Shown here piece after piece: positions 178 through 14,082 of a DNA stretch of 42,770 bases (positions are counted from its first letter, which is position 1; every line of letters begins with the position of its first letter). The stretch is taken from the NCBI GenBank assembly GCA_012517255.1, contig JAAYVH010000131.1:1-42770 (forward strand), given 5' to 3'. This DNA is from Chthonomonadales bacterium (GTDB taxonomy: Bacteria; Armatimonadota; Chthonomonadetes; Chthonomonadales; CAJBBX01). The notes below the pieces were generated by a model. That model had not been told where the DNA came from and searched no databases. It saw only the letters and a program-made list of their open reading frames with translations. A program made the position numbers and the translations under genes.

Positions 178-251
178 GAGTCAACACTCAGACGCAAGAA
201 ACATCTTCCACCTTCGAGGAGGCTGTTTCGGGGACACAAGAGGGCGCTTGC

Positions 252-10808: not shown

Positions 10809-11756
10809 GTGAATAACCTTGCCGACCGGACAACAGTGAACGATCGAGACCCTGAGGCGACCTTACAAGTCGAGGCAGTCGAGATTCCTGAGCAAGAGAC
10901 TGCCGATGACCAGAAGCCGACCCATCCGGCCCTGGCAGCGCGCCCGCGCAGCGAGTGGCTAGTGTGGGCGGCTTTCGTTGCCGTGTACGCGCCAGTCGTG
11001 GTTGAGTATGCGCGGGAGTGGGCGGCGGATGAGCGCTACTCCCATGGTTGGCTGATCTTCCCCATCAGCCTCGGGTTGACGTACATGAACCGATCCCGGC
11101 TGGCGGCATCGATCGGAACCGGTTCGTTTGTGGGTCTGCCGCTCATCGTCTTCGGCCTGGTCGCGCACTCCATCGCATGGTTTCTGCGTTTCCCGCACGT
11201 CGGGATGTGGTCGCTCGTGATGGTGCTCGCCGGTATCGTTATGTCGCTCTACGGCATGGCGGCTTGGAGGGTCGTGCGCTTCCCTGCGCTGTTCCTGCTG
11301 TTTGCGGGAACGCTGCCGAACCGGCTCATCGAACCGATCAACCTGAAGGTGCAGTCGCTGAGCGCCGTGGGGGCCGCCCATGTGATGTCGTTTCTCGGCT
11401 ACACCGTGATGCGCGAGGGGAATCGCATCGAGATACCGGGCTACGTTGTCGAGGTTGCCGACATCTGCAGCGGCTACAAGAAGACCGTCGCCCTGCTGGC
11501 GTTCGCGTTTCTGTATGGCTACGTGATGACATCATCGCCCGTTCGGCGGATCGTGCTCTGCGTCGCGGCGATCCCCATCGCGGTCCTGGCCAATGTGGGC
11601 CGCGTCGCCGGTCTCATCGCGGTAACGTCGGCTGGAGGATCCGAAGCTCTCCACAAGGCACACGATCCGGCTGAGATGGTGGCGCTGCTTGTGGCATTCG
11701 TGCTCTTCATTCTTCTGGGAAAGGCAATAGGATGCAGGCTGCCAGAACCGGCATAG
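10809..11756 (+). CDS. Exosortase (PEP-CTERM transpeptidase)
   Basis: A polytopic membrane cysteine protease/transpeptidase that processes PEP-CTERM proteins at the outer face of the inner membrane. The 315-residue protein has about eight hydrophobic segments after a polar N-terminal region of about 48 residues. The catalytic residues are visible: C220 in VADICSGYKK, R265 in ANVGRVAGL and H285 in LHKAHDPAE. The marker YSHGWLIFP near residue 77 is also typical of the family. The GTG start lacks a good ribosome binding site; GTG at residue 10 is an alternative. The EpsI gene begins inside its last 25 bases, so the two are translationally coupled. A likely substrate is encoded at 2846. Confidence 0.94.
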   Translation: MNNLADRTTVNDRDPEATLQVEAVEIPEQETADDQKPTHPALAARPRSEWLVWAAFVAVYAPVVVEYAREWAADERYSHGWLIFPISLGLTYMNRSRLAASIGTGSFVGLPLIVFGLVAHSIAWFLRFPHVGMWSLVMVLAGIVMSLYGMAAWRVVRFPALFLLFAGTLPNRLIEPINLKVQSLSAVGAAHVMSFLGYTVMREGNRIEIPGYVVEVADICSGYKKTVALLAFAFLYGYVMTSSPVRRIVLCVAAIPIAVLANVGRVAGLIAVTSAGGSEALHKAHDPAEMVALLVAFVLFILLGKAIGCRLPEPA

Positions 11757-12379
11757 CGCTGGCGTTCTTCGCGGCGGCCATCGCGGCGACCTACGCATTG
11801 CCCCGCCTCGATCTGCCGCATCCGCGCCGGATTCCGGTGGAGGATTTCCCGCGGCAGATCGGCGAATGGCGCGCCATTGCCGACAACGAGACCTCCGAGG
11901 ATGTCCGCAAGGCACTGCCCACCGCCACGATCGTGGATAGGCACTATCGCGACAACCGGGGCAGGGTTATCAACGTCGTGCTTGTGACGGCCACCGAGAT
12001 GAGGGACATTCACTCGCCGGCTGTGTGCCTGCCGGGTTCCGGCTGGAAGACAGACAAGGACGAGCTCGTGGTGCAGGACGGCCAGAAGATCACGGCTCGC
12101 ATCATGTCGGTGCGCAAAGAGCGCTACCACGTATGGTTCTGGTATCCTCCTGTGCCGTATCCGGAACCGAAGAACCCGCTGGTACGAGCCATGTACAAGT
12201 GGAGGCTGACTGCGCCGGGCACCTATCGGCCCGACACGATCGCGGATCTTTCGAGCTCGCTGATGGTGCGGGTCATCACGCCCGACGTGGACGGATCCGA
12301 CGAGGCTGTCAGGGACTTCGTGGAGAAATCGAAAGCCCCGTTGGCCGAGCTGATCGCGCGCGTGCCGGTGTCCAAGTAG
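11732..12379 (+). CDS. EpsI-family exosortase-associated protein
   Basis: A 215-residue protein with an N-terminal membrane anchor or signal (about residues 5-23) followed by a periplasmic EpsI domain. The diagnostic motif is IHSPAVCLPGSGW (93-105). EpsI is found either fused to the end of exosortases or as the next gene, as here, and is presumed to assist exosortase function or polysaccharide-linked sorting; its biochemistry is unsettled. The ATG overlaps the end of the exosortase gene by 25 bases and is preceded by AGGCAATAGG, indicating coupled translation. Sequence from SVRKERYHVWFWY to the end follows the usual family pattern. Confidence 0.92.
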   Translation: MQAARTGIALAFFAAAIAATYALPRLDLPHPRRIPVEDFPRQIGEWRAIADNETSEDVRKALPTATIVDRHYRDNRGRVINVVLVTATEMRDIHSPAVCLPGSGWKTDKDELVVQDGQKITARIMSVRKERYHVWFWYPPVPYPEPKNPLVRAMYKWRLTAPGTYRPDTIADLSSSLMVRVITPDVDGSDEAVRDFVEKSKAPLAELIARVPVSK

Positions 12380-12416: not shown

Positions 12417-12447
12417 AGAGATCATCGGCCGGAACAAGGGGAGAGAG

Positions 12448-14040
12448 ATGCCCGACATAGACCTGGAGCAAGAAAGCGTCTGGGATCAACTTCCGGAAGA
12501 GGCAGACGACGCGTACAAGGCCTTCACAGTCTTCAGGGGCCTGGGCGCGTCGGCGACCGTCGAGCAGGCCTGTCGCAAGGCCTCGGGCGGCGACCCTGCT
12601 CCTGACATGCTGGCCCAGTGGCAAGCGTGGTCGGTCGAGTGGGCGTGGCAGGGGCGCGCCGAGAAGCATCGGCAATGGTCGCAATCCGCCGCTGAGGAAG
12701 CGCGCAAGCTGGCGGACCGTTGGTCCAGCGCCAAGGAGTTCTACTCCTCGGACGAAGAGCGTCCGGCGGGTCTTCTGTCCCGGTTGTTCGGCAGGCGCGG
12801 CCGGCACCATCGTTCATCGCACCGGTCTGGCTCGCCGTCGGGCAAGCGCATTCAGGTGCGGCCCGAGGGCGAGCCGAGCGCGATGAAGAAGTGGGCTCAG
12901 GAGAGGGAAGCGCGCCGTCATTTTAAGGCGCAGGAGGCGGCCGCCCTTCGATCGGCCAGGGGCCAGAAGAAGCGCACTCTTGCCGAGCGGTGGACCTTGT
13001 GGGTGCGCAAGCGACGCGACGAGGCCAAGCGAAGCCGCGACAAGGGCATCCGCGGATGGTTCCGGCGGCGCTTCACGCGTATTCGCATCTATGCGCGGCG
13101 TCGCTTCGGACGCTTTGTGTTGGCCTTCGCTGCGGTCATGTTCGTCATCGGTCTGACAACCGGCGTGCTCGGTATGCGGTGGCGCCGCCTGCGGTTCCAG
13201 ACCGGCGTGGTCATCACGATCAACGGTGACAGCATTCGGCGCGACACCATCCAGAGCAAAATCGAGCAGTACGGCGGCAAGGCCGTGATGCAAGACATCA
13301 TCGAACAGACGCTGCGCCGGCAGTTCGCCAAGGCCAAGAACGCCTATCCGAAGGAGTCCGAGGTTGAGGCGCGACTGGCAGAGGATCAGAAGCAGCCCGA
13401 CTTCGCCAAGTCCATCGCGGCAGCGGGCCTTAGCTTGCAGGATTACCGGAACATAGTGCGCGACGAACTCGCTCAGGTCAATCTCATGGCCAAGGGAGTG
13501 ACGGTCACCGACAAAGAAGTGCGCCGCTATTACGAGATACATTCGGACAAGAAGAACCCTCGCGCGCGCTTCTACACGCCTGAGACAATCCAGGTTGCGG
13601 TGATCGGCACGCGGAGCAGAGAAGCGGCGGAAGCTGCTCTTGAGGAGCTGCGGCAAGGCGTCGTCTGGGAAGAGGTTGCCCGCAAACACAGTCAGGACAC
13701 GAGCGCCTATCAGGGCGGCGTACTGCCGCCGTTCGCTCGCGGGCGGACGCTGTGCGCGCAGATACCGGGCATGGAGCAGGCGATCTTCGGCATGACACCC
13801 GGGCAGCGGATCGGTCCGTTGAAGTTCGGCGAAGGATGGTGGATCATTCAGTGCCGCGATAAGCAGCCCGAGCGCACGATGCCGTTCGAATCGGTCAAGC
13901 ACAGGGCGCGCGCATGGGCGCTGCTCGAGAAGGGCGTGCCGATCAACGGTCGCCGCGTGGCCAGTGAATACGCGGCTTTCCAGAAGAAGGCCAAAGTCCA
14001 GGTCTTCGATCCGTTCTTCCGGTCCTTGATGCCCCGCTAG
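12448..14040 (+). CDS. Membrane parvulin-type peptidyl-prolyl isomerase with phage-HTH-like cytosolic domain
   Basis: A 530-residue single-pass membrane protein. Residues 12-80 (WDQLPEEADDAYKAF, FRGLG, then LAQWQAWSVEWAWQGRA) resemble the small HTH domain of phage terminase small-subunit-like proteins, where an AY.AF helix and a W...W.W..RA helix recur. Residues 110-220 are very Arg-rich. One transmembrane helix (about 222-242) follows, then a SurA/PrsA-like chaperone region with a parvulin domain (about 375-475: VAVIGTRS, WEEVARKHSQD, GGVLPPF, GPLKFGEGWWIIQ). Positive charge before the helix places the HTH part in the cytosol and the isomerase outside. It follows exosortase and EpsI; a PPIase (EpsD family) is a known companion of exosortase loci. 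Start at 12448 has a GGGGAGAG site; an open frame further upstream overlaps epsI. Confidence 0.9.
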   Translation: MPDIDLEQESVWDQLPEEADDAYKAFTVFRGLGASATVEQACRKASGGDPAPDMLAQWQAWSVEWAWQGRAEKHRQWSQSAAEEARKLADRWSSAKEFYSSDEERPAGLLSRLFGRRGRHHRSSHRSGSPSGKRIQVRPEGEPSAMKKWAQEREARRHFKAQEAAALRSARGQKKRTLAERWTLWVRKRRDEAKRSRDKGIRGWFRRRFTRIRIYARRRFGRFVLAFAAVMFVIGLTTGVLGMRWRRLRFQTGVVITINGDSIRRDTIQSKIEQYGGKAVMQDIIEQTLRRQFAKAKNAYPKESEVEARLAEDQKQPDFAKSIAAAGLSLQDYRNIVRDELAQVNLMAKGVTVTDKEVRRYYEIHSDKKNPRARFYTPETIQVAVIGTRSREAAEAALEELRQGVVWEEVARKHSQDTSAYQGGVLPPFARGRTLCAQIPGMEQAIFGMTPGQRIGPLKFGEGWWIIQCRDKQPERTMPFESVKHRARAWALLEKGVPINGRRVASEYAAFQKKAKVQVFDPFFRSLMPR

Positions 14041-14054
14041 GCAGAGAGAAGTCA

Positions 14055-14082
14055 GTAGGGGCAACGCATCCATTGCCCCTAC
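14055..14082. terminator. Two-way terminator hairpin of the GTAGGGGC type
   Basis: GTAGGGGCAA (14055-14064) and TTGCCCCTAC (14073-14082) form a perfect 10-bp stem with an 8-base loop between two convergent genes. The same GTAGGGGC end recurs near 42501, so it may be a mobile or dispersed palindrome used as a terminator. Confidence 0.7.

Follow-up and report, generated by a model that had tools for sequence, protein, structure and literature searches.

An exosortase-linked, membrane-anchored parvulin-like protein of Chthonomonadales with an N-terminal domain homologous to the small subunit of phage terminases

The protein described here is encoded on a contig of 42,770 nucleotides from a Chthonomonadales bacterium (JAAYVH010000131.1; the whole stretch is referred to below as the window), where it combines a parvulin-like, membrane-anchored part with an N-terminal head domain that is homologous to the small subunit of phage terminases (TerS), as found by searches in both directions. 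Codon comparisons in three species show this head to be under purifying selection. Since its sequence contains neither the positively charged face nor the oligomerization core of TerS, we regard it with moderate confidence as a domesticated TerS head, which may have been re-surfaced to serve in the cytosol as a protein-interaction module of a non-catalytic envelope chaperone, and which possibly clasps the linker of its own polypeptide.

According to the mechanism that we propose, a periplasmic chaperone of the parvulin fold, anchored in the membrane, would serve the exosortase/EpsI pair, and its cytosolic N-terminus would have been extended by the helix-turn-helix (HTH) domain of a small terminase from a phage. 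The parvulin half would hold or fold a client near the exosortase, acting without isomerase activity, and the head, its DNA binding presumably lost, would now be a small cytosolic interaction module that binds either a partner protein or the strongly basic linker of its own chain and thereby places or controls the chaperone at the inner membrane. In a bolder and rather doubtful version, the head would be a switch or docking module in the cytosol, coupling intracellular events (through a partner protein or a packaging protein of a phage) to the chaperone and the exosortase on the outer side of the inner membrane, and it would then be the first terminase domain domesticated into envelope biogenesis.

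Results and discussion

Organization of the locus and of the fusion protein

The fusion gene stands directly downstream of the exosortase and EpsI genes, which overlap by 25 bases and lie on the same strand (Table 1). Its ATG is preceded by GGGGAGAGAG, and a similar purine-rich stretch is found 5' of the start in both orthologs described below. The downstream neighbour is a gene on the opposite strand with no Pfam match, so that no gene for the terminase large subunit (TerL) adjoins the fusion gene on either side. The exosortase linkage, the single membrane helix, the TerS-like head and the stretch of about 100 Arg-rich residues had all been noticed in a first-pass annotation of the sequence, and each of them was recovered in the searches. 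The replaced parvulin His residues and the restriction of the fusion to one small clade, both described below, went unmentioned there. An antisense open frame of 419 aa (window 12814-14073, minus strand) overlaps the fusion gene and is most simply taken as the shadow of a high-GC coding sequence.

Table 1. Features of the exosortase-EpsI-fusion unit (positions in the window)
Feature	Position	Strand	Evidence
Exosortase (EpsH-type), first gene of the three-gene unit	10809..11756	+	PF09721 E 7.6e-54; TIGR02602 135 bits (cut-off 105.55)
EpsI-type protein (DUF3485)	11732..12379	+	PF11984 E 2e-22; TIGR02914 49.1 bits (cut-off 42.8)
Ribosome-binding stretch ACAAGGGGAGAGAG ahead of the fusion ATG	12434..12447	+	Sequence
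Fusion gene, 530 aa: TerS-like head, basic linker, one membrane helix, SurA/PrsA-type parvulin	12448..14040	+	
TerS-like HTH head, residues ~6-100, HTH region acidic	12463..12747	+	phrog_6299, AlphaFold2, Foldseek, charge
Basic cytosolic linker, residues 113-222	12784..13113	+	Composition, ortholog alignment
Single membrane helix, residues ~223-243	13114..13176	+	Kyte-Doolittle 2.43; predicted helix 220-253
Parvulin (PpiC-type) domain, residues 353-484; A384 and W465 at the catalytic His positions	13504..13899	+	PF13145 E 6e-15; alignments to PrsA/SurA and 22 relatives

The linker contains 38 Lys and Arg among its 110 residues (net charge +29), and its residues 146-222 are strongly conserved among the orthologs, no less so than any other region except the parvulin domain. 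It matched no family, and in a search of 61 genomes it was found in no protein other than the three fusions. The protein has a single hydrophobic segment (best window 223-241), and the full-length structure prediction, which was poor (pLDDT 58) and was therefore used for secondary structure only, places a helix over it. Considering the basic N-terminal flank of this helix and the compartment in which such foldases act, the head would lie in the cytosol and the parvulin domain in the periplasm.

The head domain belongs to a family of phage small terminases

Residues 9-87 match phrog_6299, a terminase small subunit family, with E 3.6e-9 when residues 1-101 are used as the query and 6.8e-8 with the whole protein. 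In the opposite direction, a model built from the three known heads picks up stand-alone TerS-like ORFs (140-240 aa) in other parts of the phylum; the top-scoring one (L070; E 9.8e-16, or 5.8e-14 in the genome search) lies on a contig that carries a large serine integrase, and three others (L067, L065 and one in the region of L079) are followed by TerL. Through the stand-alone proteins the family can be followed into phages: a member is encoded 5' of the terminase and portal genes in Microbacterium phage ValentiniPuff and in Methanobrevibacter smithii tailed virus 1, and 5' of the terminase large subunit in Aphanizomenon phage CL131. Viral contigs yielded no relative when searched with the head alignment and a few when single stand-alone proteins served as queries.

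The AlphaFold2 model of the head, calculated from seven aligned sequences, comprises helices 20-32, 38-46, 52-64 and 67-103 with a mean pLDDT of 82 (about 90 in the core), which agrees with the HTH-type fold suggested at first reading. In a Foldseek search of predicted viral structures the second-best match was ValentiniPuff gp3 (TM 0.77, rmsd 1.9 A, probability 1.00). No fold match to the head was found among solved structures, and the fold assignment thus relies on the predicted phage structures.

Conservation and origin of the fusion

Full-length orthologs were identified in two further genomes, both labelled Chthonomonadales, one of the same genus (G001, 71% identical) and one of another genus in the same family (G005, 59%). 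They have the identical start residue, contain only in-frame indels and keep the whole layout, and the order exosortase-EpsI-fusion is found in all three genomes, with flanking genes that are shared in G001 and different in G005. A late start near residue 145, which had been raised at the outset as a possibility that would remove the head, was rejected, for Met146 is Leu in both orthologs and the first Met, the purine-rich stretch and the head are conserved; an assembly chimera was likewise rejected on account of the identical layout of three separately assembled genomes. Given the conserved start codon, frame, head and gene order, together with the selection on the head, we consider the head neither an artefact nor the product of a misplaced start.

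The head has diverged more rapidly than the parvulin part (59% and 51% identity in the two orthologs, vs 78% and 67%). For residues 1-76 the Nei-Gojobori method gives dN 0.29 and dS 2.6 against G001, and dN 0.53 and dS 2.6 against G005, hence a dN/dS of roughly 0.11-0.20 wherever dS was estimable; with dS close to saturation, the ratio is a rough one, which demonstrates constraint and not its exact strength. These values bear on the idea that the head is a passenger of little function, a phage fragment picked up by chance in a chaperone family whose N-termini vary freely. Its faster evolution would fit, and so would the occurrence of four paralogs whose cytosolic N-termini are of three kinds and of relatives with short ones; we nevertheless find it unlikely, as the head persists in two genera, its dN is far lower than its dS, its frame is intact and its Trp/Phe core is conserved.

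In a survey of 291 Armatimonadota genomes the fusion was present in three, namely the genome studied here (G000) and those of the two orthologs, and all other strong phrog_6299 matches were small separate ORFs. The head was also considered as a widespread cellular module, and this was rejected when a scan of named genomes, made with narrow patterns, returned only the two orthologs. A tree built from the parvulin part groups the three fusions in a single clade (support 100/100), and their relatives carry other heads. Because headless relatives occur across the order Chthonomonadales and the fusion in so few genomes, the best reading is that the head is a captured phage domain, probably gained once. 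This was one of the options proposed initially, a captured domain with a new role, and it is now the best supported of them. The converse, that the head was lost from the relatives, is less likely, since stand-alone TerS proteins adjoin TerL.

The head has probably lost its DNA-binding function

Membrane-bound one-component regulators are known to regulate genes from the membrane, and the first-pass annotation had suggested that the head might link envelope folding to DNA or gene control. In such a case the head and the basic linker would bind DNA or RNA, and the chaperone would be tied to the nucleoid or would take part in regulation from the membrane. The HTH fold is indeed retained in the head model, and a linker of such charge, well conserved over residues 146-222, could still bind nucleic acid. 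However, the net charge of the HTH region is negative in each of the three fusions (-2, -5 and -5) and positive in 19 stand-alone relatives (+2 to +9 in the ten that were aligned, +1 to +5 in the other nine), and the Arg that opens the HTH in 10/10 aligned stand-alone proteins is replaced by Ala or Ser in the fusions. Since the three fusions represent one evolutionary event, the charge reversal counts only once.

DNA binding by the small terminase of SF6 is weak, uses a positively charged face of the HTH and depends on a ring of copies (PMC4737164). The rings of phage TerS are built by a core that follows the HTH (PMC9611059). The fusion protein lacks this source of avidity for weak single domains, as homology to TerS ends near residue 87-100. 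The acidic HTH region, the loss of the conserved Arg and the absence of the core together disfavour DNA tethering, which we judge quite improbable, and they point to a head that has given up DNA binding and has been retained for another job.

A head derived from phage TerS might alternatively act as an anti-phage decoy or sensor, which mimics TerS and disturbs packaging or detects TerL at the membrane, and mobile elements of the same phylum do encode related TerS proteins. Yet the core required for joining TerS rings is missing, the neighbouring genes encode an exosortase and EpsI rather than defence proteins, and PADLOC gives no match for any of these three proteins, which makes a defence function very unlikely. 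We therefore return to the protein-interaction module as the preferred reading of the head.

The parvulin half and the exosortase system

Residues 353-484 match PF00639 (E 1.7e-8) in addition to Rotamase_2 (PF13145), and the closest solved relatives of the parvulin part are PrsA (6vj4, E 8e-6) and SurA (1m5y, E 1e-5). Alignment to these two proteins reveals replacement of both catalytic His residues, and neither is present in any of the 23 family members aligned (the fusion and 22 relatives), which makes a role as holdase or scaffold likelier for the periplasmic part than one as isomerase. A few parvulins of non-enzymatic appearance retain isomerase activity despite altered His positions, and for this reason the loss of activity is something we infer from the replacements rather than take as given. 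The label EpsD-type, applied to the protein at first, had to be abandoned: the EpsD model TIGR02925 does not match it at E <= 10, and the only match in the whole genome is another protein, with 17 bits vs a cut-off of 108.9.

The genome encodes one exosortase and, according to Pfam, no PEP-CTERM protein; there are 8 marginal PEP-CTERM matches (best E 0.09), and a variant signal is possible. Six relatives of the same family that possess an exosortase have 13-35 matches each, and the three genomes with the fusion have 2-8 marginal ones, much like the three genomes that lack an exosortase. The three fusion-bearing genomes thus keep their exosortase although the signals are nearly absent. They have only the short exosortase with a separate EpsI, and not the long fused exosortase-EpsI form of the sister genera.

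Comparison with known systems

With phage TerS (phrog_6299, ValentiniPuff gp3) the fusion protein shares the N-terminal HTH fold and its core residues, alignable over about residues 9-87, but it differs in lacking the oligomerization core, the C-terminal part and a TerL neighbour, in the reversed charge of the HTH region and in being anchored to the membrane. With parvulins of the SurA/PrsA/PpiD type it has in common the N-terminal helical region and the PpiC-type domain, and PpiD also possesses a single N-terminal membrane anchor; the replaced catalytic His and a cytosolic extension of 220 residues with the TerS head set it apart. EpsD parvulins are likewise encoded beside an EpsH exosortase and EpsI, but the fusion protein fails their model, is anchored in the inner membrane and has a cytosolic head. 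It is best filed as a membrane pseudo-parvulin of the exosortase locus with a domesticated TerS head, and should not be labelled as a TerS, a proven prolyl isomerase or an EpsD.

All parts belong to known families, and their combination was not found in open-access papers. In this literature, whose silence is weak evidence, no paper joins an exosortase with a parvulin or EpsD, and no domesticated TerS HTH is described. When bacteria domesticate phage genes, these are mostly tail, capsid or lysis modules. The DNA-recognition domain of a packaging motor, placed on an envelope chaperone and retained for a time exceeding the age of a genus, would represent an unusual route of domestication, with the charge reversal as a visible sign of a change of use.

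Paralogs and headless relatives

Each of the three fusion-bearing genomes encodes three further membrane-parvulin paralogs, so that four paralogs per genome display three quite different cytosolic N-termini. One kind (L049 in G000:C118, L051 in G001:C89, L053 and L055) has a conserved cytosolic segment EVPPGYRLRRIGPGQWVAEP directly before the membrane helix; these paralogs are of two types, have a short N-terminal segment and are arranged in tandem in two genomes, and the segment had no match in the comparisons run. The other kind (L050, L052 and L054; the G000:C200 type) has a charged cytosolic coil of 100-plus residues with repeats such as EREERARLRREERELAKA. A common head of the fusion and the G000:C200 paralog, considered on account of an LTDRW motif, was not significant (hhalign probability 0.4%). 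The paralogs form a natural series for the role of the cytosolic part of membrane parvulins, which also bears on why some exosortases persist when their ordinary PEP-CTERM substrates are almost gone.

Relatives outside the clade of the fusions and paralogs have short N-termini. In G003 a headless relative and an exosortase of the same type, about 23 kb apart, mark the two ends of one cluster, between which lie a Wzc-like kinase, an ABC exporter with Wzt and several glycosyltransferases; in G006 and G007 the two genes share a contig at distances of about 20 and 8 kb. Such an association with polysaccharide genes is in line with how EpsH was first described (PMC1569441). The exosortase gene of many other Chthonomonadales is directly preceded by the gene for a different, short membrane parvulin (L091, L096, L098, L100, L103, L104, L107, L108, L111 and L116), so that the linkage of parvulins to exosortases is general in the order. 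The exosortase downstream of the short parvulin is mostly of the long, fused exosortase-EpsI form.
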